From Aeromicrobium sp. (GTDB taxonomy: Bacteria; Actinomycetota; Actinomycetes; Propionibacteriales; Nocardioidaceae): a stretch of DNA of 64,000 bases. Below the pieces are notes generated by a model. It had not been told where the DNA came from. It saw only the letters and a program-made list of their open reading frames with translations, and made no database searches. Position 1 is the first letter of the stretch. Every line of letters starts with the position of its first letter. Shown here one piece after another: positions 8,881 through 24,082 of this stretch. The stretch is taken from positions 62,001 through 126,000 of the forward strand of contig NZ_JAGLCD010000002.1 in assembly GCF_023146395.1 (NCBI RefSeq). The letters run 5' to 3'. Made by a program: the position numbers and the translations under genes.

Positions 8881-11800
8881 GTGACTCAGGCTTTTGAGCG
8901 AGCCCCTGAGCTCGCAGGATCTGACTTCGAGTTGCGCGATCGCTACGAGCGCCACGAGGGACGAGTGCACCTGACCGGCATCCAGGCTCTTGCGCGGGTG
9001 CCGATCGACCAAGCGCGAGCGGATCGTGCCGAAGGTCGCCTGGTGGGCACCTACATCAGCGGCTACGAGGGTTCACCCCTCGCTGGATACGACCTGGAGC
9101 TGCTGCGTCAGACCGCTCTCTTGGACGAGCACGACATCACCTTCGAGCCGGGACTGAACGAGGAAGCCGCGACCATGGCGGTACAGGGCGCCCAACTCAT
9201 CGACGGCCTCGATCCTCGTGTCGAAGGCGTCGTGGGGTTCTGGTACGGGAAGGCCCCAGGTCTGGATCGGGCGACAGACGCCTTTCGTCACGCAAACCTC
9301 ATGGGAACGCACCCACGCGGCGGCGCAGTCGCGCTGGTGGGGGATGACCCGGCGGCCAAGTCCTCGAGCGTGCCGTGCACGTCAGAGCGAGCCCTTGCTG
9401 ATCTCGGGATGCCGGTGTTCTATCCGGCAGACCCTGCCGAGGTCCTTTTCGCGGGGCGTCATGCGGTTGCCTTGTCGCGCGCATCAGGCCTGTGGACCTC
9501 GATCAAGGTGGTGACTGCCGTAGCGGACGGGTCGGCTTCGATGGACCTTCTCGCCGATCCCGTAGCGCCTGTCCTACCTGAGGGGTCTGGACGCCACGTG
9601 CCCAGCTCCAAGCTGCTGCAACCGACCCTCGGTCCCATTGAGCGTGACTTCATGACGACGCGCATGCGCATCGTCATGGACTATCTGCGTCTGAACGAAT
9701 TGAACCGGATCACGGGAGCACCTGATGCACGTGTGGGGATCGTCGCCTCGGGCAAGACCTATCTTGACGTGCGGGAGGCTATGTCTCGCCTCGGTCTGAA
9801 CGGCGGGGGGAGCGACCATGGCGACCGCGTGAGGCTCCTGAAGCTCGACGTGGTCTGGCCGCTCGACCCCGAGCAGGTCAGGCGCTTCGCCTCGGGCCTC
9901 GACGAGATCATCGTCGTCGAGGAGAAACGAGCCTTCATCGAGACTCTGGTACGAGAGGCGCTGTACGGCTCGGACTCCACCCCGACCATCACGGGAAAGG
10001 CAGACCCTCAGGGCGGCGAGCTCTTCGCATCGTACGGCGAGCTGGACGCGGACTCGGTGACACTGGGACTCGCAAAGCGGCTCGATGGACGGGACGGCAT
10101 GCCGGGTGTCGGGGCATGGCTTGAGGAGCGGAACCGAACTTTCGCCCGCGAGCGACTTCATCTCCCGCTGATCCAGCGAGCGCCGTACTACTGCTCTGGC
10201 TGCCCCCACAACACCTCGACGCGCCCGAGCTCGGACTCGATCGTCGGCGCCGGAATTGGATGCCATGCGATGGTCCTGCTCATGGACCCCAAGCAGGTCG
10301 GGGACGTCGTCGGTCTGACCCAGATGGGCGGTGAAGGTACGCAGTGGCTCGGGATGGCGCCGTTCGTCAAGGCGCCACACTTCATCCAGAACCTTGGCGA
10401 CGGCACCTTTCACCACTCGGGAAGCTTGGCCATTCGTGCCGCGGTGGCATCCGGCCGCAACATCACCTACCGCATCCTCTACAACTCGACGGTCGCCATG
10501 ACGGGCGGCCAGGACGCGGTGGGACAGATGGACGTCCCGGCGATGGTGCGCAACCTCCTGTCCGAAGGGGTCGAACGCATCATCGTGACCACGACCGATG
10601 TGAAGGCTCTGCGAAAGGCAGGGCTGCCGCGGAGTGTCAGTGTCTGGCCCCGCGAGCGGATCGGTGATGCGCAAGAGGCCCTTGCCGCGACACAGGGCAC
10701 GACCGTCCTGATCCACGAGCAGGAGTGCGCGACAGAACTTCGTCGCAAGCGCAAGCGAGGGAAGGCAGCGCAGCCGAGCGAGGCCGTGATGATCAACGAA
10801 CGTTTGTGCGAGGGGTGCGGGGACTGTGGTGAGAAGTCAAACTGCCTGTCGGTCCACCCGGTCGCGACAGAGTTTGGGCGTAAGACCACGGTTCACCAGA
10901 GCTCGTGCAACTCCGACCTGACGTGTCTGTCCGGTGACTGCCCTGCCTTCATGACGATCACCAAGGGGTCGGGCCCGAGCAAGCGCGAGTCGGTCGCCCT
11001 CCTCTCGGCCGATGATCTACCCGCTCCGCCCGACCGACAGTTGTCAGGCGTGCACACTGTTCGGCTCATGGGCGTCGGCGGCACCGGAGTCGTGACGACG
11101 TCACAAGTCCTCGCCATCGCCGCAGTCCTGTCCGGCCATCACGTTCGCACCCTCGATCAGACGGGTCTCGCGCAGAAGGGTGGCGCCGTCGTCTCCGACG
11201 TGAAGATCTCGGGACGTCCGATCGAGGCCGGCAACAAGGTCGGTGACGGCGGTTGCGACCTCTACCTTGGCTACGACCTGTTGGTGGCCGTCGACCCCCG
11301 CAACTACGCAGTACTCGCCCGGGAAGGAACGGCGATCGTGTCGACGTCCGTCGTGCCCACAGGTGCGATGGTCAGCGACAAGTCGGTGCTGTTCCCGGAC
11401 GTGGACGAGGCCCTTGTGCCGATCCGTGAGCGATCCGATCCCGAACGCGTCCTGGCCTTCGACGCTCGTCGGTACGCGGAGGGCCTGTTCGGCGCCGAGC
11501 AGTTCGCGAACATGTTTCTCCTCGGTGTTGCCCTCCAGGCAGGGGCGCTGCCACTGTCGGCCGCTGCCGTCGAGGAGTCGATCACTCTGAACGGGGTCGC
11601 CGTCGAGAAGAACGTGCAGTCCTTCCGCCGTGGGCGGCAATGGATCAGTGACCGACGGAGCCTCGATGCGGCCCTCCCGACGCCGGACGTGGCCGACGAG
11701 GCCGCCCCGACCAGGTCGAGCCAGATGGTGAAAGCGTCACCCGGATCCGAGCTCGAACGGCTCGTCCGAGTTCGCGCCCATGAACTGGCCGCCTACCAGA

Positions 11801-12372
11801 ACGAGAAGTACGCGATGCGATACGCGGAACTCGTCGAACGCGCCCGCGCTGTCGAGGACCGCGTCATGGGGGCTCCCGGTCCGTTTGCAGAAGCTGTCGC
11901 TACCTACGCCTTCAAGTTGATGGCCTACAAGGACGAGTACGAGGTTGCTCGCTTGGCACTCGACACCAGCGTCCGCGACGAGGTCGCCCAGACGTTCGGA
12001 GCGGATGCTCGCATCGCGTGGCGGCTGCACCCGCCGACCCTCCGCGCACTCGGTATGAAAAGGAAGTTGTCGCTCGGGGCGTGGTTCCGCCCGGCACTGT
12101 CTGCCCTCTACCGCTTGCGTGGCCTCAGGGGGACGCCCTTCGATCCCTTCGGGCGAGCCGAGGTTCGTCGTGTGGAACGAGGCTTGGTCACGGAGTACGA
12201 GGAGACGATCTCGGCCTGCCTTGGTGTCATGAACGTGGCCACGATCGATCACGCTGTCCGCCTCGCGGGTCTCCCGGACATGGTGCGAGGTTACGAGGAC
12301 ATCAAGCTTCGTTCGGTCGCGGCATATGAGGAGGAGCGCGTCACACTTCTACGCTTGCTGAGCGAGGCGTGA
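8881..12372 (+). CDS. Indolepyruvate:ferredoxin oxidoreductase, fused three-domain form
   Basis: Thiamine-diphosphate enzyme of 1163 residues that oxidatively decarboxylates 2-oxo acids made from (mostly aromatic) amino acids to acyl-CoA, reducing ferredoxin. Order: alpha-type domain starting LTGIQALARVPIDQ; CSGCPHNTS (about residue 438) and the ThDP region MGGEGTQWLGMAPF (about 482); an iron-sulfur segment CEGCGDCGEKSNC (about 642) with a second Cys group SSCNSDLTCLSGDCPAF; and a gamma-type domain GVGGTGVVTTSQVLA (about 729) with a helical C-terminal extension. This is the long aerobic-bacterial fusion, not the archaeal IorAB pair. Start is GTG 8881, with GGAG about 10 nt upstream. It opens the cluster that also has an amino acid importer and acyl-CoA genes. 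Its real 2-oxo acid is unknown; branched-chain acids are possible. Confidence 0.9.
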   Translation: MTQAFERAPELAGSDFELRDRYERHEGRVHLTGIQALARVPIDQARADRAEGRLVGTYISGYEGSPLAGYDLELLRQTALLDEHDITFEPGLNEEAATMAVQGAQLIDGLDPRVEGVVGFWYGKAPGLDRATDAFRHANLMGTHPRGGAVALVGDDPAAKSSSVPCTSERALADLGMPVFYPADPAEVLFAGRHAVALSRASGLWTSIKVVTAVADGSASMDLLADPVAPVLPEGSGRHVPSSKLLQPTLGPIERDFMTTRMRIVMDYLRLNELNRITGAPDARVGIVASGKTYLDVREAMSRLGLNGGGSDHGDRVRLLKLDVVWPLDPEQVRRFASGLDEIIVVEEKRAFIETLVREALYGSDSTPTITGKADPQGGELFASYGELDADSVTLGLAKRLDGRDGMPGVGAWLEERNRTFARERLHLPLIQRAPYYCSGCPHNTSTRPSSDSIVGAGIGCHAMVLLMDPKQVGDVVGLTQMGGEGTQWLGMAPFVKAPHFIQNLGDGTFHHSGSLAIRAAVASGRNITYRILYNSTVAMTGGQDAVGQMDVPAMVRNLLSEGVERIIVTTTDVKALRKAGLPRSVSVWPRERIGDAQEALAATQGTTVLIHEQECATELRRKRKRGKAAQPSEAVMINERLCEGCGDCGEKSNCLSVHPVATEFGRKTTVHQSSCNSDLTCLSGDCPAFMTITKGSGPSKRESVALLSADDLPAPPDRQLSGVHTVRLMGVGGTGVVTTSQVLAIAAVLSGHHVRTLDQTGLAQKGGAVVSDVKISGRPIEAGNKVGDGGCDLYLGYDLLVAVDPRNYAVLAREGTAIVSTSVVPTGAMVSDKSVLFPDVDEALVPIRERSDPERVLAFDARRYAEGLFGAEQFANMFLLGVALQAGALPLSAAAVEESITLNGVAVEKNVQSFRRGRQWISDRRSLDAALPTPDVADEAAPTRSSQMVKASPGSELERLVRVRAHELAAYQNEKYAMRYAELVERARAVEDRVMGAPGPFAEAVATYAFKLMAYKDEYEVARLALDTSVRDEVAQTFGADARIAWRLHPPTLRALGMKRKLSLGAWFRPALSALYRLRGLRGTPFDPFGRAEVRRVERGLVTEYEETISACLGVMNVATIDHAVRLAGLPDMVRGYEDIKLRSVAAYEEERVTLLRLLSEA

Positions 12373-12445
12373 GTTCTTGACCGAGCCAGGTGTCGTGCGC
12401 CATTTCGGACGCATGATGCTCGAGTCAGGAGTCGGGGCGATGGAG

Positions 12446-12964
12446 TCAGATCGCCCCGACCCCGATGTCGGGTCGGGGGGTCGAGCGTCCCCAGCCACTG
12501 GCTCGCGTCTCCGCGTCGAGCAGTGGCTGCACGCGGTATGGCAGGGGCGTGCTGAGGCACAAGGTCGTGTTGGAGTGCGCCACTCCCGGGATCGCGACGA
12601 TCTGCTGAATCAGGATCTGGAGGGACGCATTGTCCTGTGCTGCCACGCGGATCAGGAGGTCCTCGCGCCCTGTCGTCGCATGTACCTCAAGGACGTGGGG
12701 GATCGTGCTCAGCGCACTGACCACCTGATCAAGCCTTCCTTGATGGAGCGCTAGGGCGGCGAAAGCTTCGACTCCGATACCCGCCTGGTGCAGGGCGATG
12801 CGGGGGGTGAATCCGTCGATGATCCCCGATTCCTCGAGGCGTCGTATCCGTGCTTGCACCGTGTTGCGGGTGACTCCCAAGGCCGCGGAGAGGTCGACCG
12901 GACCTCGCCGTGCATTCGCACTCAGCAAAGCGATGATCTGGGTGTCCAGGTGATCGATAGGCAC
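12446..12964 (-). CDS. Lrp/AsnC-family transcriptional regulator
   Basis: Protein of 172 residues from GTG 12964, preceded on its strand by a strong GGGGAGGG. The N-terminal winged HTH (DHLDTQIIALLSANARRGPV, LGVTRNTVQARIRRLEESGI) is followed by the RAM/ACT-like domain (VEAFAALALHQGRLDQVVSA, VLEVHATTGREDLLIRVAAQ). Lrp proteins usually sense amino acids, which suits a cluster with an amino acid importer and a 2-oxo acid oxidoreductase. Convergent with the oxidoreductase gene and divergent from the first HAD gene, so it may control the HAD/crotonase/ABC run, itself, or both. A longer upstream extension is possible but would run through the operator region. Confidence 0.87.
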   Translation of the reverse strand: MPIDHLDTQIIALLSANARRGPVDLSAALGVTRNTVQARIRRLEESGIIDGFTPRIALHQAGIGVEAFAALALHQGRLDQVVSALSTIPHVLEVHATTGREDLLIRVAAQDNASLQILIQQIVAIPGVAHSNTTLCLSTPLPYRVQPLLDAETRASGWGRSTPRPDIGVGAI

Positions 12965-13084
12965 GGGACCCTCCCCGGTTGATGTTTTCGCACGCGTCGT
13001 CCTTGGCGTTCCACCAACCCGGGGTCGCGCAGGCCCGCTCATCAGGGCGAGGGGTTGAACGCCACGCCGATCTTCGGAAGTCGC

Positions 13085-13121
13085 TTGACACGAGTCGTTT
13101 GAACATGGACATTGTATCAAT
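13085..13121. promoter_or_regulatory. Promoter with ATTGTATCAAT operator, candidate GntR site
   Basis: TTGACA at 13085-13090 and GACATT at 13108-13113 are 17 bp apart and could be the promoter of the first HAD gene. The palindrome ATTGTATCAAT (13111-13121) overlaps the -10 area, and TTGACACGAG (13085-13094) is a partial inverted copy of the same motif. The identical ATTGTATCAAT appears at 18980-18990 in the gntR/ligase promoter region. A shared regulator, most likely the GntR protein at 18274-18927, is inferred. Confidence 0.55.
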
Positions 13122-13178
13122 ACTTTGAGTGGCGCTGATCACGTTCTCGTGGCGTCCGCGTCGAGGAGAGGGCAGGTG

Positions 13179-13847
13179 ATGGCGATGTCAGAGCGTTGGG
13201 TGACGTTCGACTGCTACGGAACGATGATCGACTGGCGGGTCGGCATGGAGGCGGCACTGGATGCGGTGGCGCCCGGACGGGCCGACGACCTCATCGCCGC
13301 GTACCACGAGTTCGAGCCGCAGGTCGAGGCGGAGACGCCGTATCGCGTGTACCGAGAGATCCAGCGAGAGGCCTTGACCCGCGCGGCGCATCGACTCGAC
13401 ATCACTCTTGATGCGGATGCCGGCGGTGTGCTGGGCGAATCGCTTCCGACGTGGCCAGCCTTTCCTGACAGCATCGCTGCGTTGGACGGGCTGCGTTCGG
13501 CCGGCTTCCGACTGGGCATTCTGACCAATGCCGACGTCGACATGATTCAAGGGACGCTGGCCGGGCCCCTCCCCGTCGAGTTCGACACCGTGATCACGGC
13601 CGAGGAGGTGCGCAGCTACAAGCCCGGCCCCGGGCAGTTCGATGCCTTCATCAGTCGACATGCGCCTGGTCGTGCGGACTGGATCCACGTCGGAAACAGT
13701 GTGTGGCACGACTGTGAGCCGGCTCATGAGCGCGGATTCCGGTCCGTGTACGTCCACCGGAGGAACGAGTCGCGTGACGGAGGCTGCGCCACCGCAGTCG
13801 TCCCAGACTTGGCGTCCTTGCAAGCCGCGTTGGAGTCGCTCACGTGA
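13179..13847 (+). CDS. HAD-superfamily hydrolase, 'haloacid dehalogenase type II'-like, copy 1
   Basis: Hydrolase of 222 residues with the Rossmann-like HAD core. Motif I is VTFDCYGTMIDW with the nucleophile Asp, motif II ILTNADVD, motif III Lys in EVRSYKPGPGQFD, and motif IV HVGNSVWHDCEPAHERG. The FDCYGT..DW opening is typical of proteins annotated as type II dehalogenase. However, the halide-binding Arg of true L-2-haloacid dehalogenases is not evident, and the usual Tyr after KP is Phe, so a phosphatase or another hydrolase role is at least as likely. Start at ATG 13179 follows GAGGAGAGGG; ATG 13185 is an alternative. Overlaps the crotonase start as GTGA. A close paralogue is encoded at 21580-22281. 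Confidence 0.8.
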   Translation: MAMSERWVTFDCYGTMIDWRVGMEAALDAVAPGRADDLIAAYHEFEPQVEAETPYRVYREIQREALTRAAHRLDITLDADAGGVLGESLPTWPAFPDSIAALDGLRSAGFRLGILTNADVDMIQGTLAGPLPVEFDTVITAEEVRSYKPGPGQFDAFISRHAPGRADWIHVGNSVWHDCEPAHERGFRSVYVHRRNESRDGGCATAVVPDLASLQAALESLT

Positions 13848-14710
13848 GCGTCGTCGCCTCCCGACAAGGCGGTGTCGAGGTTCTTGATCTCGATCGGCCC
13901 CACCGCCTCAATGCGCTCGACGTCGACACTGTGGAGAACCTGCACGCGCGCCTCGAGGATGCGGAACGAAGCGGAGCACGTGCGGTCCTCCTTCGTGGTC
14001 GAGGTCGGGCCTTCTGCTCAGGCTTCGACCTGAAGCAGGAACTCTCCCGAAGTGCCGAGGAGGGCCAGCTGGCTCGCTTGCAAGCACTCACGGCTCGGCT
14101 GCGGCAGATGGATGTTCCCAGCGTGTGTGCGGTCCAGGGCGTCGCCGTGGGTGCAGGAGCGGAGCTGGCGCTCGCATGCGACATCGTCGTCGTTGCGACT
14201 GACGCTCGGCTGTCCTTCCCAGACGTTCGCGCCGGCTTCGCGGCCGGTGGCGGTGTCACCTCGGTACTTCCTCGGCTCATCGGCGTTGCACGCGCACGAA
14301 TGCTCCTCCTGACAGGAGGCGAAGTGAGTGGGGCGCAGGCACATGCGATCGGCATGGTCGCTGCGTCCTGTGCGGAGATGGACCTCGAGGACGAAGCCAC
14401 GACGATCAGCAGGCGCCTGGCCGATCTCGCGCCGGAAGCGGTCGCGCGAGTGCGGGCATCGATCGATGCAGGCAGCTTCGGCCAGCTCGATGACGCACTG
14501 GCTCGCGAGCTCGACGACATGCTCGCGACGAAGTACGCACCGGCCGGAGCGGCAACCGTCCGCAACTTTCGCGCGCACGGTACCTACACCGAACCGGACG
14601 CGGGGGATAGTCGCGCGCTAACCGACCCGGCTCGGCCCCTGCGGCCACCGTCCGCCGCGTCGGGCGTGTCATCCGCGCCCGCCCATCCCATCGTCAACGA
14701 CGTCACCTGA
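13844..14710 (+). CDS. Enoyl-CoA hydratase/isomerase (crotonase) family protein
   Basis: Crotonase of 288 residues. Motifs: [26 protein letters not shown] (the first oxyanion-hole strand), [20 protein letters not shown] (second oxyanion-hole glycines) and [20 protein letters not shown]. The usual hydratase Glu pair is not clearly conserved: the region reads [12 protein letters not shown] and then VRAGFAAGG, so isomerase or hydrolase activity is possible. The C-terminal 40 residues are an extra low-complexity Pro/Ala tail. The start GTG at 13844 overlaps the HAD stop by four bases (GTGA), which implies coupled translation. The ABC importer genes begin 11 bp after its stop, so one transcript probably covers all of them. 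Confidence 0.85.
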
Positions 14711-14721
14711 ATGCGAGTGTC

Positions 14722-15495
14722 ATGACCACTTCACCAGCCCTCCCGCACGACGCCATCGTGCTGCAGAACGTCGAGAAGCAGTTTGGGGACCACGTTGTCC
14801 TCAACAACGTCTCGATGTCAGTCAGCTCCGGAGAGGTTGTCGCGCTCATCGGGCCGAGCGGTGCCGGCAAGAGCACCCTCTTGCGGTGCATCAATCTGCT
14901 TGAGCGCCCGACGTCGGGGTCAATTACCGTCGAAGGAGTCACGATCCAGGTCGACCATTCGATCAAGGCCAAGGAGCTGGCTGCACTCAGGTCACGCGTG
15001 GGTATGGTCTTTCAGTCGTTCAACCTGTTCCCGCATCTGACCGTCCTGCGCAACATCTCGCTTCCGCAGCAGCGGGTGCTCGGGCGGAGCCAGGCAGAAG
15101 CTGAGGAGCGGGCGATGACCCTCCTCGAGCGGGTCGGGCTGGCCGATAAGGCGAAGCAGTATCCGGGAAGGTGTTCAGGCGGGCAGCAGCAGCGGATTGC
15201 GATCGCGCGAGCTCTGGCGCTGGATCCCAAGGTCATGCTCTTCGACGAGCCGACGTCAGCGCTCGACCCTGAGCTGGGACTCGAGGTTCTGGCCGTCATG
15301 CGAGAGCTGGCCGACGAGGGAATGACGATGGTGGTCGTCACGCACGAGATGCAGTTCGCGCGCGACGTGAGTGACCATGTCGTGGTCATGAGCGATGGCG
15401 CGATCCTGGAGGAGGGCAAGCCCCACGAGATCTTCGCTTCGCCGAGTCAGCCGCGCACTCGCGCGTTCCTGCGAGCCGTCCTGGACCGACAGTGA
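14722..15495 (+). CDS. Polar amino acid ABC transporter, ATP-binding protein (GlnQ type)
   Basis: ATPase of 257 residues for an amino acid importer. Walker [11 protein letters not shown]-loop [13 protein letters not shown], signature [15 protein letters not shown] (Cys replaces the usual Leu), Walker [15 protein letters not shown], switch His in [10 protein letters not shown]. This matches the HisP/GlnQ/ArtP subfamily. Its stop overlaps the first permease start by four bases. With two permeases and a lipoprotein it forms a complete importer, which makes amino acid uptake a core function of the cluster. The substrate cannot be read from the ATPase. Confidence 0.93.
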
Positions 15496-16142
15496 CCGTC
15501 GACACGTGGCAGATCGTCGCTCAGGGCATACTCGGGACACTCCAATTGACGGCCGTCGGATTCGCCTTGGGCGCGCTACTCGGGCTGCCGCTCCTGGTAC
15601 TGCGCATCTCGGCAGCCTGGCCATTGCGTGCCCTGGCCCGGACCTACATCGAGGTCACTCGAGGTGTCCCGCTGATCATCTGGTTATTCCTGATCTACAA
15701 CGGGCCCACGCAGATCGACCCGGCACTCGGCTCGGTCTTCACCTCGTGGCGTTCGGCGGTCCTCGCGATCGCGCTGGTCTCGGCGGCCTACATGGCTGAG
15801 ATCTATCGCGGTGCCCTGCGCGCCGTGAAGCAGGGACAGTTCGAGGCCAGCCGAGCGCTCGGCATGTCGCGGCTGGACACGGCAACTCGAGTGATCGGGC
15901 CCCAGATGGTCCGGGTCGCCATTCCATCGTCCGCCTCGTACGCCATCGGCCTGCTGAAGGACTCATCGCTGGCGTCGACGATCGGCGTCTTCGAGATCAC
16001 GTACTACGCGAGCGTCGCCTCAAGCAACACCGCCTCGGTGACGCCCTTCTTCGTGGCGGGCATCTACTACGTCGCCCTGACCTTTCCCTCCGCTTGGGCG
16101 GCGCGCAGCCTCGAGGGCTACCTGATGAAGAGGACTGCGTGA
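15492..16142 (+). CDS. Amino acid ABC transporter permease 1 (HisM/GlnP type)
   Basis: Inner-membrane permease of 216 residues with about five hydrophobic segments. [14 protein letters not shown] follows the second segment, and the cytoplasmic EAA loop reads [20 protein letters not shown], which docks onto the ATPase. The polar amino acid transporter (HEQRo) permease profile is clear. Start is GTG 15492 overlapping the ATPase stop (GTGA), and its stop shares one base with the next permease start. It probably forms a heterodimer with that second permease. Confidence 0.92.
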
Positions 16143-16789
16143 TGACGGAGATCTGGAACGACTGGCTCACCCATCACGATCAGCTGCTCGGTGGACTCTG
16201 GGTCAGCCTGCGCCTTGCTTTCATGGCCCTCCTCTTGGGTCTGCCGGCGGGTCTTGTTCTCGCGGTCGGGGCGTCGTCGAGGCGCCGCGTGCTCCGTGGA
16301 TTCATCGTGGTCGTGATCGAGATCGGGCGCGGCACGCCCGCTCTGGTCATGCTCCAGGTCGTCTACAACGGAATTCCGGTGACTCTCACGGGATTCGTAT
16401 GTGCCTACATCGCCCTTGCTCTGACGACGGCTGCCTACACCAGCGAGATCATCCGGGGTGGTCTCCAGTCGGTCCCGGGTGGGGAGATCGAAGCCGGCCG
16501 AGCCCTGGGCATGAGCTCATTCGACGTCCTCCGCGACATCGTGATCCCTCAGGGCCTCCGCATCGCGATCCCTCCGCTCATGGGCTTCTGCATCCTCATG
16601 TTCCAGGCGACGTCGCTGGCCTTCATCATCGCTGTCCCCGAGCTGACCTCGCAGGCTCGCTCCATCGCGAACAACACCTTCCACTACCTCAACCTCTTCG
16701 TGATCGCTGGCGTGCTCTACGCCATCGTCACCGTCTCCGCAAGCCTCGTGACCGAGCAGGTCGAGAAGAAGCTTCAACGGCACGTCTAA
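16142..16789 (+). CDS. Amino acid ABC transporter permease 2
   Basis: Second membrane subunit, 215 residues. It has IGRGTPALVMLQVVYNGIP in the N-terminal half and the EAA loop GGEIEAGRALGMSSFDVLRD, then FQATSLAFIIAVPELTSQ near the C-terminus. ATG 16142 shares one base with the preceding stop. Same family as permease 1 but clearly diverged, so a heterodimeric channel is expected. The binding-protein gene follows after 27 bp. Confidence 0.92.
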   Translation: MTEIWNDWLTHHDQLLGGLWVSLRLAFMALLLGLPAGLVLAVGASSRRRVLRGFIVVVIEIGRGTPALVMLQVVYNGIPVTLTGFVCAYIALALTTAAYTSEIIRGGLQSVPGGEIEAGRALGMSSFDVLRDIVIPQGLRIAIPPLMGFCILMFQATSLAFIIAVPELTSQARSIANNTFHYLNLFVIAGVLYAIVTVSASLVTEQVEKKLQRHV

Positions 16790-16816
16790 GAGTTCAACCC
16801 CGAAGAAAGAGGCACT

Positions 16817-17659
16817 ATGCGCAAGATCGTCACCACGACAGCGGGATGCGTCCTCGCTTTGTCTGCCCTCACGGCATGCGGATCCGGCTCGGATGGCCCG
16901 GACTCGGACTGCGAGCCTGCTCACCCAGATCTGAAGACCGTGACGAACGGAGCCCTGACGGTCTCGACCTACAACTTCCCGCCTTTCGTGATGCTCGATG
17001 GCACCGAGATGTCGGGTGTCGAGGGCGACATCCTCAACGAGATCGCGGAGATGGAGTGCCTGAACCTCACGGTGCAGCCACTCGACACGGGATCGGTCAT
17101 TCCGGCCGCGCAGAACCGGCGAACCGATCTGGCCGCTGGGGATTGGTACTGCACCAAGGATCGTTCCGAGGTCCTGACCTTGGCGGGCCCTGTCTACGGT
17201 GACCAGATCGCCATCATCTCCGACGACGGCGCGTCGACGTTCGAGGCGCTGCAGGGCAGGACGGTGGGCACCGTTGAGGGCTACCTCTGGAACGACGAGC
17301 TTCAGGTGATCTACGGCTCCAACCTGAAGGTGTATCCGACTCCTGCGGCCGAGTACGCCGACCTGCAGTCGGGTCGTCTGGATGCCGCCATTGACTCCTT
17401 CGGGTCGGCTTCCTACGCGAACGAACAGAACGGAGGGTCGTGGAAGATCGAGCTGGCCGAAGCGGACCCTCGGGTGGGTTCGAGCAACGACCCGGGTCAA
17501 GTCTGTTTCCCCATGGCGAACGGGAATGAGTCGTTGCTGACAGCCATCAACGAGAACATCATCTCGCTCCGCGAGAGCGGGCGGCTGGCGGAGATCATGG
17601 AGGAGAACGGTCTCGACCCCTCGGCCGCGGATCCGGGCCCGCTCAACCTGATCGGCTAG
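16817..17659 (+). CDS. Amino acid ABC transporter substrate-binding lipoprotein
   Basis: Secreted binding protein of 280 residues. The signal peptide MRKIVTTTAGCVLALSALTAC ends in a lipobox (LTAC) with Cys at about residue 21, so it is anchored on the outer face of the membrane. The rest is a cluster 3 (SBP_bac_3) fold: LTVSTYNFPPFVMLDG, SGVEGDILNEIAEMECLNL, RRTDLAAGDWYCTKDR, GRTVGTVEGYLWND and DAAIDSFGSASYANEQ. Reads MRKIV from ATG 16817. Followed by a strong hairpin terminator, so it ends the HAD-crotonase-ABC transcript. Confidence 0.92.
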   Translation: MRKIVTTTAGCVLALSALTACGSGSDGPDSDCEPAHPDLKTVTNGALTVSTYNFPPFVMLDGTEMSGVEGDILNEIAEMECLNLTVQPLDTGSVIPAAQNRRTDLAAGDWYCTKDRSEVLTLAGPVYGDQIAIISDDGASTFEALQGRTVGTVEGYLWNDELQVIYGSNLKVYPTPAAEYADLQSGRLDAAIDSFGSASYANEQNGGSWKIELAEADPRVGSSNDPGQVCFPMANGNESLLTAINENIISLRESGRLAEIMEENGLDPSAADPGPLNLIG

Positions 17660-17668
17660 TTCGTGCGG

Positions 17669-17700
17669 CGCCGGGGCGGAGGATGATGCCCGCCCCGGCG
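17669..17700 (+). terminator. Hairpin terminator after the ABC importer
   Basis: Perfect 11 bp stem CGCCGGGGCGG (17669-17679) and CCGCCCCGGCG (17690-17700) with a 10 nt loop, 9 bp after the lipoprotein stop. The trailing sequence TCTCGCTAT has only a weak T-tract, as is common in actinobacteria. Confidence 0.7.
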
Positions 17701-17775
17701 TCTCGCTATGGCATCCAGCGGCGACCTGCGGACCTCACATCGTTGATCCCAGACTTCAAACGAAGGAATCCCACC

Positions 17776-18144
17776 ATGAATCCCGAGAACTCCGTCAGTC
17801 GGACGGTTGAGCCCCGTGACACGGCAGCGGCGTGGGGGCCTGAGTTCCCACCGGCAGCATCGACACCTTTCATTCTGAGCCTGGCCGAACTGGCATGCCA
17901 CGGCGTGCTCGCGCCTGACTTGGCCGACGATGAACTTACCGTCGGGGCCGGCGTCGAGCTCAGTCACGATCGCCCGAGCCCGGTAGGTGCACATCTGACG
18001 GCCACGGCCGTACTTGTCGAGCGAAACGGCACGAAGGCGCGGTTCGAGGTCGAGGTGACCGATGGCAGCGTCGTCGTCGCCCGCGTCCAGCATCGACGAG
18101 CTGTGCTGAAACGAGCCGTGATCGAGGGCGCGCTTCAAGCATGA
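17776..18144 (+). CDS. Hotdog thioesterase of the fluoroacetyl-CoA thioesterase (FlK) family
   Basis: Acyl-CoA thioesterase of 122 residues. After a 25-residue leader the FlK-like fold appears: STPFILSLAELACHGVL, then GAGVELSHDRPSPVGAHLTA, VERNGTKARFEVEVTDG and VARVQHRRAVL. The FlK catalytic residues are Thr42, Glu50 and His76. Here Thr30, Glu38 and His64 keep exactly the same spacing (8 and 26 residues), so the active site looks complete. Start ATG 17776 follows GAAGGA. It lies alone between two terminators, after the importer and facing the GntR gene. It may remove a dead-end or toxic acyl-CoA made by the cluster. Specificity for fluoroacetyl-CoA is not implied, since residues outside the triad set it. 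Confidence 0.8.
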   Translation: MNPENSVSRTVEPRDTAAAWGPEFPPAASTPFILSLAELACHGVLAPDLADDELTVGAGVELSHDRPSPVGAHLTATAVLVERNGTKARFEVEVTDGSVVVARVQHRRAVLKRAVIEGALQA

Positions 18145-18239
18145 GGTGAGAGCGACCGGGACCGGCCTGCCCACGCATGTCGGCGAGATCGCTGCTCAGT
18201 GGGCCTGGCAGTCGGTCTGGTTCAGGCCAGAGGTGCCGG

Positions 18240-18271
18240 ATGGTGCCCTCGGCCTCTGCCGAGGGCACCAT
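18240..18271. terminator. Bidirectional hairpin terminator between thioesterase and gntR
   Basis: Perfect 14 bp stem ATGGTGCCCTCGGC (18240-18253) and GCCGAGGGCACCAT (18258-18271) with a 4 nt loop. It ends 2 bp from the gntR stop, in the gap between two convergent genes, and so can serve both. Confidence 0.8.
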
Positions 18272-18273
18272 TG

Positions 18274-18927
18274 TCAGGTGGCGGGGTCGAAGAGGTCGAA
18301 CAGCTCCTGGGATGCCACTTCGAGGTGATAGCGGAGGGCAGCCTCGGCGGCTTGAGAATCTCCGCTCTTGAGAGCCTCGAGAATCTCCCGGTGTTCGCGC
18401 CCGATCCGCTGCGGATCAATGTAGAGCTCTTGGCTTCGCGCGAGCGCGAACTGCAGCTCGGACGACATTGCTGTGAAGGCCCGGAGGAGTCGCATGCTTC
18501 CTGCCGCCCGAACCACCTCCCGGTGGAATCCAAGGTCCGCAGTCGTTGCCTCCGCCCACGGAACGTCGAGTTCCATCGACTCCAGGCGTCCCACCATCGC
18601 CTCGGCTGCGGCGAGCGAGGCGTTGCTCTGCACGGCGAGGCGGGCGGCCTCCACCTCGAGGGCCGCACGAAAACGGAAGAGGTCCTCGACATCTTCTCGG
18701 GCCAGTGAAGGCACGAATACGCCGCGGTTCTGCTCATATCGCAGGAGTCCCTCGTCGGTCAGGATGCGGAGGGCGCCGCGAAGAGAGTAGCGGCCGACGC
18801 CATAACTCTCGGACAGCGGAACTTCCTGCAGTTTGGAGCCGGCCGGAAAGGCGCCGGACAGGATCCTCTGCCGCAGTGACGTGACCAGTGCATCGACTGT
18901 CGTCACTCGGCCCAGCTCTTCAGTCAC
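18274..18927 (-). CDS. GntR-family regulator (FadR/FCD subfamily)
   Basis: Protein of 217 residues. Winged HTH: VDALVTSLRQRILSGAFPAG, KLQEVPLSESYGVGRYSLRG, LLRYEQNRGVFV. The helical FCD effector domain includes LFRFRAALEVEAARLAV, LGFHREVVRAAG and REHREILEALKSGDSQAAEA; its His/Asp residues normally bind a metal and a carboxylate ligand. Start at GTG 18927 behind GAAGGA, about 9 nt away. A longer form from 19068 would read through the operators. Divergent from the acyl-CoA ligase gene, with four copies of one palindromic motif between or around them. Likely the local repressor, induced by an organic acid intermediate; this is inferred. Confidence 0.88.
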   Translation of the reverse strand: MTEELGRVTTVDALVTSLRQRILSGAFPAGSKLQEVPLSESYGVGRYSLRGALRILTDEGLLRYEQNRGVFVPSLAREDVEDLFRFRAALEVEAARLAVQSNASLAAAEAMVGRLESMELDVPWAEATTADLGFHREVVRAAGSMRLLRAFTAMSSELQFALARSQELYIDPQRIGREHREILEALKSGDSQAAEAALRYHLEVASQELFDLFDPAT

Positions 18928-18979
18928 AAAGCGAATCCTTCGAATTCTCCCCGGACCAGCTCGCCCGGGGTGCCTTGGG

Positions 18980-19069
18980 ATTGTATCAATCTTCGCGCGA
19001 AGCGAGTGGCATTGGAGTGAATGTTGACACAATGCCTTGCCCATGCAACATTGATATTGTGTCAACATT
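18980..19069. promoter_or_regulatory. GntR operator region: palindrome plus 14 bp inverted repeat over the ligase promoter
   Basis: ATTGTATCAAT lies at 18980-18990. AATGTTGACACAAT (19020-19033) and ATTGTGTCAACATT (19056-19069) are a perfect 14 bp inverted repeat with a 22 bp spacer. All fit ATTGTRTCAAY. TTGACA (19024-19029) with AACATT (19048-19053) could be -35 and -10 boxes 18 bp apart, so the two arms would cover the -35 box and the transcription start. The first copy is nearer gntR and may serve its autoregulation. Confidence 0.65.
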
Positions 19070-20657
19070 ATCGTTCTCCGATCTCCCGCTGATCTCCGAC
19101 TACGTCAAGTACTGGGCTCAGCACCAGCCTGATGAGGAGATGCTGACGCACGTCGAGACGAGGCTGACGGCGCGGCAGGTTGAAGAGCAGTCGGCGGCGC
19201 TCGCTCGGGCGTTGATGGCTGCAGGCGTCCGTCACGGTGACCGTGTTGCTGTGCTCGGGGATCCGCGTCCGGAGTTCTACGTCTCGTTCATCGCCGCCGT
19301 CAGGATTGGCGCGACCTGGCAAGGGCTGAATCCGAAGTACACCGACGGTGAGCTCGACCACGTGACCTCCGACTCGCGGCCGAGCGTCTTGCTGGGCCTG
19401 TCGGCAGAGGACCGACCGAAGCTTGCGGCACTTGCGTCCCGGGTCGGGCTGTCCGGGCCGATCGTGGTGGCCGGTGCAGAGTGGGACGAATTCGTCCGCA
19501 CAGGGGAGAGCGTCACCGACGTCGAGCTCCAGCGAGCGGAGCGCTCGGTGCTCCCCAGCGACCCTGCCGTGCTCGTCTACACATCCGGAACCTCGGGACG
19601 TCCCAAGGGAGCGTTGCTTCCGCACCGAGGACTGGTCCGATGCTCGGCGATTCAGGCAGAGCGTTGGTACGAGGCGCGACCTCGCATGCTGTGCGACCTG
19701 CCGATCAACCATGTCGGAAGCCTCGGCGACATCAGCTCCTCAGTCGTGATCGCTGGCGGGACGGTTCATTACATGGAGCGATTCGACCGCGTGGGGGTTC
19801 TCGAGGTCATCGCGTCCGAGCGAATCGAGTACTGGCTCGCCATCCCGACGATGTTCCTCCTGGCGTCCCGCACCCCAGAGTGGGCCGGTGCGGACCTCTC
19901 GAGCATGAAGCGGGCGATCTGGGGTGGAGCGGCACCACCGCGAGATCTGGTGCTGGAGCTCCAGCGACGGATCCCGATCGTCTGCACCAGCTACGGCATG
20001 ACCGAGACGGTCGGATCCGTGACGTACACCGACGATGATGACGACCTCGAGTCGCTTCTGGAGACCGTCGGTCGCCCCGATCCGCGGTACGAGCTCCGGA
20101 TCGCTTCACCAGACGGAGCTGTCTGTGGCGTCGGGGAGGCGGGGGAGATCCAACTCAGGGGCGACTACATCATGCTCGGATACCTCAATCGTCCGGACGC
20201 CACTCGTGAAGCCATCGACGATGATGGGTGGCTCCACACGGGCGACGTGGGTTCATGGGATGACGAGGGCCGCGTGCGGCTCGGTGGACGTCTCACCGAC
20301 ATGTTCAAGTCGGGGGGCTACAACGTCTACCCCCGCGAGATCGAGTTGGCGCTTGAGGAACACCCCCAGGTTGCCGCTGCATCCGTCGTGAGCATCCCGG
20401 ATGAGCTCTACTGGGAAGTGGGGGCAGGGTTCGTCGTGGCTCAGGGTGATCCCCCCACGGAGGAGCAGTTGCGCGCCTTTCTCCGCACCAAGCTGGCGAA
20501 CTACAAGATTCCCAAGGGTCTCTTCATCAGAGCTGAGCTCCCGCGACTGCCCATCGGCAAGGTCGACAAGCGTGCGCTCCGGGCCATCGCCGAAGAAGCC
20601 GTTGCCACCAGTAGTCCAGCAACGGCCACGAATGCTGCGGAGCGAGCCGATGCCTGA
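19059..20657 (+). CDS. Acyl-CoA synthetase / AMP-dependent ligase
   Basis: Class I adenylate-forming enzyme of about 532 residues that activates a carboxylic acid to acyl-CoA through an acyl-AMP. Core motifs: VYTSGTSGRPKGALLPHRG (A3), SYGMTETVGSV (A5), LHTGDVGSWDDEGRVRLGGR (A7/A8) and FKSGGYNVYPREIE, with the catalytic Lys in NYKIPKG near the C-terminus. I prefer GTG 19059 because ATG 19032 lies inside the promoter and operator. If AACATT is the -10, the mRNA would be nearly leaderless. It overlaps the following crotonase gene by 8 bp. The substrate is unknown; the pocket does not point to a specific acid by eye. Confidence 0.88.
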   Translation: MSTLSFSDLPLISDYVKYWAQHQPDEEMLTHVETRLTARQVEEQSAALARALMAAGVRHGDRVAVLGDPRPEFYVSFIAAVRIGATWQGLNPKYTDGELDHVTSDSRPSVLLGLSAEDRPKLAALASRVGLSGPIVVAGAEWDEFVRTGESVTDVELQRAERSVLPSDPAVLVYTSGTSGRPKGALLPHRGLVRCSAIQAERWYEARPRMLCDLPINHVGSLGDISSSVVIAGGTVHYMERFDRVGVLEVIASERIEYWLAIPTMFLLASRTPEWAGADLSSMKRAIWGGAAPPRDLVLELQRRIPIVCTSYGMTETVGSVTYTDDDDDLESLLETVGRPDPRYELRIASPDGAVCGVGEAGEIQLRGDYIMLGYLNRPDATREAIDDDGWLHTGDVGSWDDEGRVRLGGRLTDMFKSGGYNVYPREIELALEEHPQVAAASVVSIPDELYWEVGAGFVVAQGDPPTEEQLRAFLRTKLANYKIPKGLFIRAELPRLPIGKVDKRALRAIAEEAVATSSPATATNAAERADA

Positions 20658-21432
20658 GATCGCGAGAGCGGCGTCCGACGAGGAGCTCGTCATTACGGCG
20701 GACGACGACCACGGCATCGTCACGATGCGCCTCAACCGTCCGCAGCGGCTCAACGCTCTCAGCGAGTCGCTCGTCGGAGCGCTCGAGGAAGCCTTGGCCG
20801 GGGCGGTCGCTGAAAGGCGTCGGGCCGTGATCCTGACAGGGACGGGCCGAGCATTCTCTGCGGGCTTCGACCTTCGAGAGGAACGCGATGACGACGGCGT
20901 CCGACAGATCGACGCGCAACAACGCCTGGGCGAGACCCTCGCCACGATGCCGGTGCCGGTGATTGCCGCCGTAAATGGTTTGGCGATCGGTGGCGGCTGC
21001 GAGATCGCGTTGGCGTGCGACGTCGTCTTGTCGGCCTCGGACGCGGTCTTCGGACTTCCTGAGGTTCGCGTCGGCACGGCGATGGGGGGCGGGACGTCAT
21101 TCCTTCTGGCGCGCGCGGTGGGTCGTCTGCGCGCTTCCTACTTCGTGCTGCTCGGCGAGCCGATCGGCGCGGTCGAGGCTCATTCCTTCGGCATGGTGAG
21201 TGAAGTGGTCGACGGCGCCGAGCTCCCTTCTGCTGCGTTTAGCCTGGCCACCAAGTTTGCTTCGCGTCCCCCCTATGCCATTGCCGCGGTCAAGGCCGCA
21301 ATGCGTCGCGGTCTCGACCAACCCTTCGCCGAGGCTCTCCGCGCCGAGCGGGAGGAGATTCACGCGACGCAGTTTCACCCGGAGTCGGCAGCTCTCATCG
21401 ACCGCTTTCGTGCCGACTCCACGTACGACTAG
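20650..21432 (+). CDS. Enoyl-CoA hydratase/isomerase (crotonase) family protein
   Basis: Crotonase of 260 residues. Motifs: LNRPQRLNALSESL, GTGRAFSAGFDLRE, VIAAVNGLAIGGGCEIALAC and LPEVRVGTAMGGGTSFL. The acidic residue in GGGCEIAL is in the first catalytic-Glu region; LPEVRVG carries a Glu one turn before the second position. Start ATG 20650 lies 8 nt after GGAG and overlaps the ligase stop, so the pair is translationally coupled. It resembles the crotonase at 13844-14710 in overall type but lacks the C-terminal tail, and so probably acts on a related acyl-CoA at another step. Confidence 0.87.
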   Translation: MPEIARAASDEELVITADDDHGIVTMRLNRPQRLNALSESLVGALEEALAGAVAERRRAVILTGTGRAFSAGFDLREERDDDGVRQIDAQQRLGETLATMPVPVIAAVNGLAIGGGCEIALACDVVLSASDAVFGLPEVRVGTAMGGGTSFLLARAVGRLRASYFVLLGEPIGAVEAHSFGMVSEVVDGAELPSAAFSLATKFASRPPYAIAAVKAAMRRGLDQPFAEALRAEREEIHATQFHPESAALIDRFRADSTYD

Positions 21433-21458
21433 GCGCCTTCGGCGTCGGCTCGCATACG

Positions 21459-21479
21459 CCGGCACCGCCACGGTGCCGG
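21459..21479 (+). terminator. Possible intrinsic hairpin between crotonase and HAD copy 2
   Basis: CCGGCACCG (21459-21467) and CGGTGCCGG (21471-21479) form a 9 bp perfect stem with a 3 nt loop, 27 bp after the crotonase stop. No T-tract follows, so it may be an mRNA-processing or partial termination structure. Confidence 0.35.
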
Positions 21480-21511
21480 CCGCGATCCCTCTGGAGAGAC
21501 GAAATCCCACC

Positions 21512-21580
21512 ATGTGCTGGTTACCCACGATGCGACACTGGAGATGGTGCGCCAGCCGAACACGAGATAGGTGTAATTGA
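21512..21580 (+). CDS. Putative 22-residue leader peptide coupled to HAD copy 2
   Basis: ATG 21512 opens a 23-codon frame rich in Trp and Cys (MCWLPTMRHWRWC...; three of each) whose TGA at 21578-21580 overlaps the ATG of the HAD gene as TGATG. The sequence before it (GAAATCCCACCATG) resembles the one before the thioesterase ATG (GGAATCCCACCATG), which suggests a real initiation site. It could be a regulatory leader peptide or the scar of a deleted gene. No homologue recognised. Confidence 0.35.
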   Translation: MCWLPTMRHWRWCASRTRDRCN

Positions 21581-22281
21581 TGGCAGATCGTTGGGTCACG
21601 TTCGATTGCTACGGCACGATCATCGATTGGCGTACCGGTATGACCGAGGCGCTGGAATCGGTGGCCCCTGGCCGGGCAGTCGAACTCATGGAGACCTACT
21701 ACCGGCACGAGCCGGCAGTGGAGGCAGAGTCGCCTTTCCGCAACTATCGAGACGTTCTCGAGGAGGGACTTCGTCGGGCGGCCGGTGAGCTCAAGATCCC
21801 TCTCGCGGGTCAGGAGTTGCGGGTCCTATCCACCACGCTGCCCTCGTGGCCCTCGTTCGGCGACAGCGTCGAGGCGTTGCAGGAGTTGCAGCGAGACGGC
21901 TATCGGCTGGGGATTCTGACGAACACCGATGCTGATCTCATGAGGGGCACGCTGGCCGGCCCTTTGCCGGTCGAATTCGATGAGGTGATCACGGCCGAAG
22001 AGGTTGAGAGCTACAAGCCGGGGGACGGCATGTTCGACGAGTTCGTCGCCCGGCACCGTCCGTCGCCCCAGGACTGGATTCACGTAGGAAACAGCGTCTG
22101 GCATGACTGCGAGCCGGCTCACCAGCGAGGCTTCAGAACCGTGTTCGTCCACCGCTCGGACAACCCTGAGAACAACGAGTGGATCCATATCGGAGGCACC
22201 GACGAGATCTGTGCCGACCTGGTGCTGCCGGACCTCGCCGGGCTCCCCCAGGGTCTCCGCGACCTGACCAAGGACGACTGA
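21580..22281 (+). CDS. HAD-superfamily hydrolase, 'haloacid dehalogenase type II'-like, copy 2
   Basis: Hydrolase of 233 residues, paralogue of the protein encoded at 13179-13847. Shared blocks include RWVTFDCYGT, GTLAGPLPVEFD, VITAEEV.SYKPG and DWIHVGNSVWHDCEPAH. It has a longer C-terminus (NNEWIHIGGTDEICADLVLP) absent from copy 1. The same caution applies: the nucleophile Asp, Lys and acidic motif IV are present, but the halide-binding Arg typical of 2-haloacid dehalogenases is not evident. Start ATG 21580 overlaps the stop of a 22-residue frame. A strong terminator follows, which closes the cluster. Confidence 0.8.
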   Translation: MADRWVTFDCYGTIIDWRTGMTEALESVAPGRAVELMETYYRHEPAVEAESPFRNYRDVLEEGLRRAAGELKIPLAGQELRVLSTTLPSWPSFGDSVEALQELQRDGYRLGILTNTDADLMRGTLAGPLPVEFDEVITAEEVESYKPGDGMFDEFVARHRPSPQDWIHVGNSVWHDCEPAHQRGFRTVFVHRSDNPENNEWIHIGGTDEICADLVLPDLAGLPQGLRDLTKDD

Positions 22282-22301: not shown

Positions 22302-22340
22302 ACCCCCGATCTTCGCTGGATGTTCAGCGCGATCGGGGGT
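22302..22340 (+). terminator. Rho-independent-like terminator closing the catabolic cluster
   Basis: Outer stem ACCCCCGATC (22302-22311) with GATCGGGGGT (22331-22340), inner stem GCTG (22315-22318) with CAGC (22325-22328), followed by TTTCTGTT. It begins 20 bp after the HAD stop. Confidence 0.85.
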
Positions 22341-22725: not shown

Positions 22726-22761
22726 TCAAACCCACCGTGGGTTCAAATCCCACCGCCACCG
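22726..22761 (+). repeat. tRNA-Ser 3'-end remnant (candidate attachment site), copy 1
   Basis: Holds part of a tRNA-Ser variable arm (TCAAACCCACC), an intact T-arm GTGGGTTCAAATCCCAC (22737-22753), the acceptor strand CGCCACC (22754-22760) and discriminator G. The 5' two-thirds of the tRNA, which should begin GGTGGCG, are missing upstream. Its first 30 bases recur with two mismatches at 27095-27124. A tRNA 3' end with its own terminator but no 5' half is the usual footprint of integration at a tRNA gene. Confidence 0.6.
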
Positions 22762-22767
22762 CAGTTG

Positions 22768-23386: not shown

Positions 23387-24082
23387 ATGAAGATCTGGGA
23401 ACACACCGCACAGGAACTTCTCGAACTGCCTCTGCCAGATCTATCCCTTTTGGTGCTCGCTGACTTCAAAGAAGGTGGCGGTTGGAACCAGTGGAACTGG
23501 TTGAACAGTGCGGACCAGATGCACCGTGACCAAACCGCGACCTCCGGGGTCATGGAGCGCCTGGCCGAAGCATGGTCCTGGCTGGACAGCCGTACGTTCG
23601 TGTCTCGGCTTCCCGGTCAGAACTCTCCAGACTCGCGGCGCGTCAGCTCTGAAGGCGAACGGGCTCTAGCGATGGGATTAGGTCGCCTGCACGCGGCCGA
23701 GCGACTCGAGGGCGAACTTCTTCCAGATCTCGGGAAAGCGAAACGGCAGTTCTTGCAGGGCGACTATGAGGAGGCGGTCTTCGCGGCGTTCAGGAAGGTC
23801 GAGGAAGTGGTTCGAGAACGATCTGGGATGGCTGCAGGAGACCTTGGCGTGAGCCTGATGCGGAAAGCGTTCAAGCCTGATGGGGGTCCGCTGGCAGATC
23901 AGAATGCCGAAGCCGGAGAGAAGGAAGCGCTAAGCGGGCTCTTCGCCGGAGCACTGGGCACGTTCAAGAATCCGTCGAGTCATCGAACCGTCACTTATGA
24001 CGACCCGATGGTGGCCGCTGAGGCAGTTCTGTTAGCAGACCTCCTCCTGCGCCTGCTCAATAGGCGATCTGTCAGTCCTTAG
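23387..24082 (+). CDS. Ymh-domain protein (TIGR02391 / Hypoth_Ymh family)
   Basis: Protein of 231 residues from ATG 23387. The C-terminal 130 residues match the Ymh family pattern: KRQFLQGDYEEAVFAAFRKV, then GVSLMRKAFKPDGGPLAD, LSGLFAGALGTFKNPSSHR and a closing AVLLADLLLRLL. The N-terminal 100 residues (MKIWEHTAQELLELPLPD, WNWLNSADQM) are not recognised. Family members are small proteins of unknown function, often found in plasmids, phages and islands; the NPSSHR motif resembles the HEPN-like RxxxxH/RNase-type ends of some defence proteins, but that is only a hint. Alone between a tRNA remnant and an IS fragment, which supports an accessory origin. Confidence 0.65.
   Translation: MKIWEHTAQELLELPLPDLSLLVLADFKEGGGWNQWNWLNSADQMHRDQTATSGVMERLAEAWSWLDSRTFVSRLPGQNSPDSRRVSSEGERALAMGLGRLHAAERLEGELLPDLGKAKRQFLQGDYEEAVFAAFRKVEEVVRERSGMAAGDLGVSLMRKAFKPDGGPLADQNAEAGEKEALSGLFAGALGTFKNPSSHRTVTYDDPMVAAEAVLLADLLLRLLNRRSVSP

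Follow-up and report, generated by a model that had tools for sequence, protein, structure and literature searches.

A low-GC gene cluster of Aeromicrobium sp. as a candidate regulon for the breakdown of an unusual amino acid

Described systems approach, in one enzyme or another, a cluster of 13 intact genes that we analysed in Aeromicrobium sp., at positions 8881 to 22281 of a 64-kb stretch of DNA (G000:C12:62001-126000; hereafter the window) from a draft genome (2.82 Mb in 21 contigs; completeness 83%). The cluster brings together a fused indolepyruvate:ferredoxin oxidoreductase (IOR), a polar amino acid (PAAT-type) ABC importer, an acyl-coenzyme A (acyl-CoA) ligase, two crotonases (ECH1 and ECH2), a thioesterase of the FlK (fluoroacetyl-CoA thioesterase) family, two HAD proteins (HAD1 and HAD2), and Lrp and GntR/FCD regulators. 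We tentatively read it, giving this reading a little less than an even chance, as a regulon acquired by horizontal transfer and kept under local repression, whose genes would break down an unusual alpha-amino acid, probably halogenated or with a strained ring.

The first described system is a cluster like that of Delftia plasmid pUO1, reported for fluoroacetate degradation or resistance in Caballeronia sp. S22 (PMC11812338). It shares with the window an FlK-family thioesterase, a hydrolytic dehalogenase and mobile DNA, but differs in that the neighbor of FlK is an alpha/beta hydrolase, accompanied by a methyltransferase and CrcB; on pUO1, FlK adjoins the alpha/beta hydrolase, crcB is close by, a type II HAD lies 6 kb away, and no match to the IOR, the ligase or a crotonase was found within 10 kb of FlK. 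Second, L-azetidine-2-carboxylate hydrolases are described in Pseudomonas and Aspergillus, in a route that ends in gamma-aminobutyrate-type metabolism and that, in the consulted parts of the source, needs no ligase, crotonase, FlK or IOR (PMC8016842). Such hydrolases (3smv, 8ywo and 8yvw, and also 8hp5 to 8hp7) resemble the HADs of the window in their nucleophilic Asp and the lack of a DxD motif, but share only about 30% identity with them and have a known use without CoA enzymes. Third, EdcC of estrogen degradation is an IOR-family enzyme proposed to turn a 2-oxo acid into an acyl-CoA, which beta-oxidation-type enzymes would then process; unlike in the window, its substrate is a steroid ring-cleavage product, and FlK, HAD and an amino acid importer are not named in the consulted parts of the source (PMC7793797). 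A literature search for the gene set or pathway of the window returned no description.

Recurrence of the cluster and its operator-like sites

A scan of genome contigs for HAD2 yielded 91 pattern matches, which reduced to 3 loci, two in Nonomuraea, with matches to HAD and the ABC ATPase only, and one in Mycolicibacterium komossense (L031), where 11 of the 13 cluster genes recur within one 11.6-kb stretch. The cluster is therefore more than a chance string of genes, and the refuting condition set in the preliminary description, that the genes never co-occur elsewhere, does not hold. Most M. komossense identities are listed in Table 1; the IOR and Lrp of the same stretch are more distant, at 43% and 35%. 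The two loci differ in that the window has an extra HAD-ECH pair and that the two halves stand in a different order.

Beyond these loci, the cluster is rare. Among the 394 genomes of a class sample, a HAD more than 60% identical to HAD2 was found in the own genome only, the best matches elsewhere being G579 (47%) and G628 (40%) and, within the same family, only G112 (35%); the same neighborhood, which the preliminary description had proposed to seek in relatives, was not found in this sample. Among 351 (family) and 397 (order) genomes sampled around M. komossense, such a HAD occurs in M. komossense only; the three samples may overlap. Neither FlK nor IOR lies within 20 kb around G579, G628 and G590. 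In G628 (L055), the HAD (39%) adjoins a GntR gene (37%) and a proline-racemase family gene, a setting suggestive of imino acid metabolism.

The 11-bp palindrome ATTGTATCAAT occurs exactly in both internal divergent promoters of the cluster (Table 1) and at no other site of the draft genome with up to 1 mismatch; the reversed control also gave 0 sites. Since ATTGTATCAAT is confined to the two cluster promoters, it points to one local regulon. In M. komossense, ATTGTATCAAC and ATTGTGTCAAC lie upstream of the ligase; both have counterparts in the window, that of the 18980-18990 site with 1 mismatch, and the count of two sites taken alone is within chance for that locus, being reached by 15 of 100 shuffles. 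When three promoters were aligned by eye, each showed TTGACA/T, 17 bases and ACATTG, with the operator-like site directly behind, an arrangement that fits repression by the FCD regulator; a sigma-70 consensus scan of the region gave no promoter-like site. Another word, TTGTCTGACAA, had been the first operator candidate and was rejected for want of any excess (31 sites against 62.5 expected). A search of the literature on the operator word brought up nothing related at the level of titles and abstracts. That the cluster is conserved and co-regulated is thus supported, and the earlier interpretation as a whole is supported in part.

Gene content and island context

The features of the cluster are collected in Table 1. 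All of the genes named in the preliminary description are intact where it had placed them, although the listed starts of HAD1, FlK, GntR, the ligase and ECH2 lay too far upstream. The closing terminator it had reported is supported, since positions 22290-22350 fold at -38.5 kcal/mol (z -6.95; 0 of 200 shuffles).

Table 1. Features of the cluster, in window coordinates; the starts of HAD1, FlK, GntR, the ligase and ECH2 are approximate and were moved downstream
Feature	Positions	Strand	Basis and remarks
Fused 2-oxoacid:ferredoxin oxidoreductase (indolepyruvate ferredoxin oxidoreductase family; IOR)	8881..12372	+	PRK13030 match, tree
Lrp/AsnC-family regulator	12446..12964	-	start estimated (~12964)
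Operator-like palindrome ATTGTATCAAT, promoter of HAD1-to-FlK operon	13111..13121	+	site scan
HAD1, type II dehalogenase/azetidine-hydrolase-like (predicted)	13185..13847	+	TIGR01428, alignment, structure matches
ECH1, crotonase	13844..14710	+	profile matches
Polar amino acid ABC importer ATPase	14722..15495	+	profile match; 83% to M. komossense
ABC importer permease 1	15492..16142	+	profile match; 79% to M. komossense
ABC importer permease 2	16142..16789	+	profile match; 79% to M. komossense
Solute-binding protein family 3, lipoprotein-like	16817..17659	+	profile match; 62% to M. komossense
FlK-type (fluoroacetyl-CoA thioesterase family) hotdog thioesterase	17776..18144	+	PF22636; 73% to M. 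komossense
Perfect inverted repeat where FlK and GntR converge, probably a terminator for both	18240..18270 (limits approximate)	.	palindrome list
GntR/FCD-family regulator, probable repressor	18274..18927	-	profile match; 74% to M. komossense
Operator-like palindrome ATTGTATCAAT, GntR/ligase divergent promoter	18980..18990	+	site scan
Acyl-CoA ligase (AMP-binding)	19032..20657	+	start uncertain, possibly ~19062; 70% to M. komossense
Weaker operator-like site ATTGTGTCAAC near ligase start	19056..19066	+	identical in M. komossense
ECH2, crotonase	20650..21432	+	67% to M. komossense
HAD2, type II dehalogenase/azetidine-hydrolase-like (predicted)	21580..22281	+	69% to M. komossense
Terminator-type hairpin closing the cluster	22302..22340	+	folding

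The cluster is a low-GC island beside a native leucine-type operon and, from its composition and context, looks horizontally acquired. The guanine-cytosine (GC) content per kb is 0.61-0.66 across 8-26 kb of the window as against 0.70-0.73 in the preceding 8 kb, with a second dip to ~0.65 at 30-32 kb. Confident genes are lacking from 7.9-8.88 kb, in agreement with the decayed DNA earlier noted ahead of the cluster, and from most of 22.3-25.4 kb, except for a low-GC orphan Hypoth_Ymh (PF09509) gene at 23387-24082, between the cluster and native DNA. On the plus strand, positions 22726-22762 exactly repeat 37 bp from the 3' end of the own tRNA-Ser(CGA) on contig C10, and an imperfect copy of this end lies ~4.4 kb away at 27095-27124 (+); the two look like att-type integration scars. 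No integrase was found among the ten flank genes tested, and an IS3-type transposase relic near 24.4 kb, read by eye, was dropped after two frames gave no Pfam match. The left neighbor is a TetR-regulated, leucine-type acyl-CoA dehydrogenase/carboxylase operon, which is 73-89% identical in the relative G091, where, over the stretch read, it is not followed by the cluster block. The left flank thus occurs island-free in relatives; no clean empty site was found, since the right-flank gene tested occurs in 1 of 41 genus-sample genomes, the own one.

Enzyme families and their neighborhoods in other genomes

On sequence and fold comparison, HAD1 and HAD2 (59% identical to each other) are assigned to the dehalogenase/azetidine-hydrolase type, nearest to L-azetidine-2-carboxylate hydrolase and then to 2-haloacid dehalogenases; the preliminary description had rightly listed two HAD hydrolases without reading this type, the main clue to the chemistry. 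Both carry the nucleophilic Asp in FDCYGT, and Tyr or Phe at +2 and the YKP lysine are present in 15 of 15 alignment rows. HAD phosphatases need an Asp at +2; with no DxD, that function was ruled out. Among solved chains, the closest by sequence is L-azetidine-2-carboxylate hydrolase (118 bits for HAD1, 114 bits for HAD2), followed by 8hp5-8hp7 and then by classical dehalogenases including (S)-2-haloacid dehalogenase. A HAD2 model with a pLDDT (predicted local distance difference test) of 81.9 matched, in order, 8hp5, 8hp7 (trapped with 4-amino-2-hydroxybutanoate), 8yvw, 8ywo and 3smv, the azetidine hydrolase chains ranking 3, 5 and 6, behind 8hp5 and 8hp7; lower matches were dehalogenases, some of them defluorinating, and cis-epoxysuccinate hydrolases. 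The HADs nearest to HAD2 act at a carbon close to a carboxylate, where they either expel a leaving group or open a strained ring. Motif IV of the L-DEX type (Ser-Asn...Asp), which together with an Arg we take to mark dehalogenases, is not found, the HADs having N-S-V-W-H-D and the pUO1 enzyme S-S-N-P-W-D.

This ranking, by sequence as well as by fold, and the amino-acid type of importer could be explained if the cell used or detoxified L-azetidine-2-carboxylate, or an imino acid with a similarly strained ring, through the importer and ring opening by the HADs, the CoA genes having a second purpose. We hold this to be improbable, since the structural alignments of HAD2 to the azetidine hydrolases reach 28-30% identity only, the residues around motif IV differ from those of 3smv, and the described route, as outlined above, dispenses with the CoA-related genes.

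The importer is complete, with an ATPase, two HEQRo-type permeases (77.2 and 70.3 against TIGR01726, cut-off 42.2) and an SBP_bac_3 binding protein (65.6 vs 26.4), which keeps an Arg and an Asp aligned with those of glutamine-binding chains and has around them an unusual GDWYCT stretch common to M. komossense; the amino acid import proposed earlier is thereby upheld. A structure model of the binding protein (pLDDT 31.5) was not used. The FlK protein scores 75.5 bits against PF22636 (cut-off 27), and its Thr/Glu/His triad aligns with that of FlK, all three residues being present in 9 of 10 family rows (L068 lacks the Thr); we assume the catalytic roles of the triad, and that a Gly and an Arg of the window protein also belong to the FlK site. 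Family membership does not prove a preference for fluoroacetyl-CoA; the thioesterase safeguard of the preliminary description is a reasonable inference. ECH2 (38% identical to ECH1) has both of the Glu positions that we presume to be catalytic.

The IOR scores 1371.9 bits against PRK13030, the fused indolepyruvate ferredoxin oxidoreductase (cut-off 816), with 94.2 for POR and 200 for DUF6537, and falls short of the canonical two-subunit families TIGR03336/TIGR03334 (143.4 / 83.7 vs equivalog cut-offs of 650.9 / 205.8). The family assignment supports the earlier proposal that it would convert a 2-oxo acid into an acyl-CoA. Full-length IORs occur at 33 places in 32 of the 293 genomes of an order sample, the own genome included. 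In the tree, the window IOR groups with G161, G177 and G031 (100/99) and that of M. komossense falls in the other large clade, both being among the branches flagged by a long-branch warning; given the different clades, the IOR would have joined the block more than once or been exchanged. In the close relatives G177 and G031, a Glu/Leu/Phe/Val dehydrogenase gene directly adjoins the IOR, consistent with a 2-oxo acid derived from an amino acid; the closest IOR (G161) has Lrp, OsmC-like and amidohydrolase genes as neighbors instead. At L002, a 64% identical IOR adjoins a 60% identical Lrp, and at the same-genus locus L061, Peripla_BP_6 binding protein and ABC ATPase genes lie some kb from the IOR.

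Such neighborhoods make a serious rival of ordinary branched-chain or aromatic amino acid catabolism, in which the importer, Lrp and IOR would serve to turn Leu/Val/Phe-type 2-oxo acids into acyl-CoA, the ligase, crotonases and thioesterase would handle side products, and the HADs would be incidental. The dehydrogenase beside two of the nearest IORs, the L061 genes, the Lrp-IOR pairing elsewhere and the leucine-type operon upstream of the cluster all speak for it. We nevertheless consider it unlikely, on the following grounds: (i) in 29 other IOR neighborhoods of the order (~20 kb each; 29 of the 32 other full-length places, all except G069, G275 and G081), a type II HAD was found in 0 and FlK in 1, so that the IOR does not usually bring these genes; (ii) a HAD is present in each operon behind an operator-like site; (iii) the GC break and the tRNA-derived scar separate the block from the leucine-type operon; and (iv) no PaaA or PaaC was over cut-off in the draft genome. 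For the last reason a phenylacetate pathway partner was rejected, weakly so at 83% completeness.

An IOR lies within 10 kb of FlK at five loci: the window, M. komossense, two Rhodococcus plasmids and the same-genus genome G181, whose set consists of CoA-transferase III, FlK, TctCBA, crotonase, IOR and IclR. The first four have the IOR beside an FlK-HAD block; in G851, FlK and HAD stand ~5 kb apart with an IS21-type element between them and no IOR within 20 kb. In 6 of 11 FlK-bearing plasmid records (about three lineages), a type II HAD lies within 10 kb, and 5 of these 6 also have a ligase and a crotonase; the expected HAD rate is ~0.002 per 20 kb (685 HAD2 places in 7.3 Gb), an approximate figure because its query and cut-off differ from those of the plasmid count. 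FlK and a type II HAD thus occur together on Rhodococcus, Caballeronia and Delftia plasmids. Like the window, the Rhodococcus plasmids NZ_CP096567 and NZ_CP130956 have an IOR (44%), acyl-CoA ligase, crotonase, type II HAD (44-47%), FlK (51-55%) and an FCD regulator, but MFS carriers replace the ABC importer, the ligase is only 26% identical and the crotonase is distant. In Caballeronia (NZ_CP084288, NZ_AP024327 and NC_021289), FlK, ligase, crotonase and HAD form one gene run with the functions seen in the window, but with a PaaK-like ligase and other regulators and binding protein; no description of this cassette (L067, L069, L117) was found in the literature. Near the L069 cassette there is a DMSP (dimethylsulfoniopropionate) lyase gene, and at L069 19074-19182 (Caballeronia plasmid pNK83) a Guanidine-I riboswitch precedes an annotated putative urea ABC transporter gene. 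A different common set, which looks like a small biosynthetic cluster, surrounds an FlK-like gene on Streptomyces rimosus plasmids (L118, L121) and a Rhodococcus sp. NBC_00294 plasmid (L120), and comprises ketoacyl-ACP synthase III, class III aminotransferase, acyl-CoA dehydrogenase, FlK, a CGNR zinc finger and an MFS gene.

The PaaK-like ligase of Caballeronia would also fit aromatic-acid or steroid-type degradation, as would CoA-transferase genes, which lie upstream in R. opacus and, together with thiolase genes, downstream in M. komossense, with the IOR acting on a ring-cleavage 2-oxo acid after the precedent of EdcC (PMC7793797, as far as the consulted parts go). With no oxygenase among the 13 genes and an importer of amino-acid type, this is very improbable.

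Proposed route for an unusual amino acid

The sequence shows which genes and HAD class are present, that the catalytic motifs are intact, and that the block is conserved, has operator-like sites in common between its promoters and lies in a mobile-DNA context; the substrate and the order of steps of the regulon that we favor we infer. The importer would bring in an amino acid with a leaving group or strained ring, which an aminotransferase or dehydrogenase encoded elsewhere would convert to the 2-oxo acid. Oxidative decarboxylation by the IOR would give an acyl-CoA with a reactive alpha-substituent; FlK would hydrolyse this dangerous thioester, HAD1 and HAD2 would displace the substituent through the nucleophilic Asp to give a 2-hydroxy acid, and the ligase and crotonases would then activate the skeleton again and process it. 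In the absence of an inducer, both operons would be repressed by the GntR/FCD protein through ATTGTATCAAT; Lrp probably controls the IOR. This order is favored because every enzyme then has a step. The ring or chain processing put forward in the preliminary description was not borne out.

A more specific version, in which the island would encode the complete breakdown of an amino acid halogenated at the beta position, possibly with fluorine or chlorine, is in our view doubtful. Import and transamination would yield a beta-halo 2-oxo acid, and the IOR an alpha-haloacyl-CoA, the class of compound that FlK destroys; FlK would release the free 2-haloacid, the HADs would dehalogenate this to the 2-hydroxy acid, and the ligase and crotonase would lead it into central metabolism, so that every block enzyme would have one consecutive step.

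Several observations weigh against the favored regulon. It is weakest in lacking any halogen-specific gene and in the scores of its HADs against TIGR01428 (type II dehalogenase, cut-off 125.4), where HAD2 stays below the threshold (121.0) and HAD1 passes it by only 1 bit (126.4); the L-DEX-type Arg is shifted by one in HAD2 and absent from HAD1. In eight genomes from the family sample of M. komossense (L097-L104), a 40-44% identical HAD is kept in a common neighborhood, and neither FlK nor IOR lies within 20 kb of it; a HAD of this type can therefore occur outside a pathway of the proposed kind; at L097 the neighborhood includes two acyl-CoA dehydrogenases and an MFS gene. Of 14 well-known control genomes, 5 have FlK family matches, and another FlK-family gene lies outside the cluster in the own genome (G000:C2:157863-158168; L071); the family being common, membership alone does not point to halogens. 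In the remaining 5 of the 11 plasmid records with FlK, a type II HAD is missing from the 10 kb around it, and the Caballeronia cassettes have no IOR match. None of the 13 genes encodes an aminotransferase, as had been noted before, a 2-hydroxyacid dehydrogenase, an alpha/beta-hydrolase dehalogenase or a fluoride exporter (CrcB was not sought elsewhere in the genome), and neither the window nor any of six related loci gave a fluoride riboswitch, the RNA-family search having covered the related loci other than L066 and L096.

Finally, the IOR promoter has no operator-like site, as would be expected if an IOR-Lrp amino acid module stood beside an unrelated GntR-regulated carboxylate or amino acid module. 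The different clades of the window and M. komossense IORs and the IOR-Lrp pairs without the block elsewhere agree with such an arrangement, which we think has a small chance of being right: an IOR lies within 10 kb of FlK at the five loci above, though full-length IORs occur in so few genomes of the order sample.

If the favored regulon is real, bacteria would have a route devoted to an amino acid that is halogenated or has a strained ring, in which an IOR is joined to an FlK safeguard and type II HADs, and the regulator-operator pair could be put to use as a biosensor. In addition, the comparison brings to light an FlK-ligase-crotonase-HAD set that recurs in actinobacteria and betaproteobacteria.

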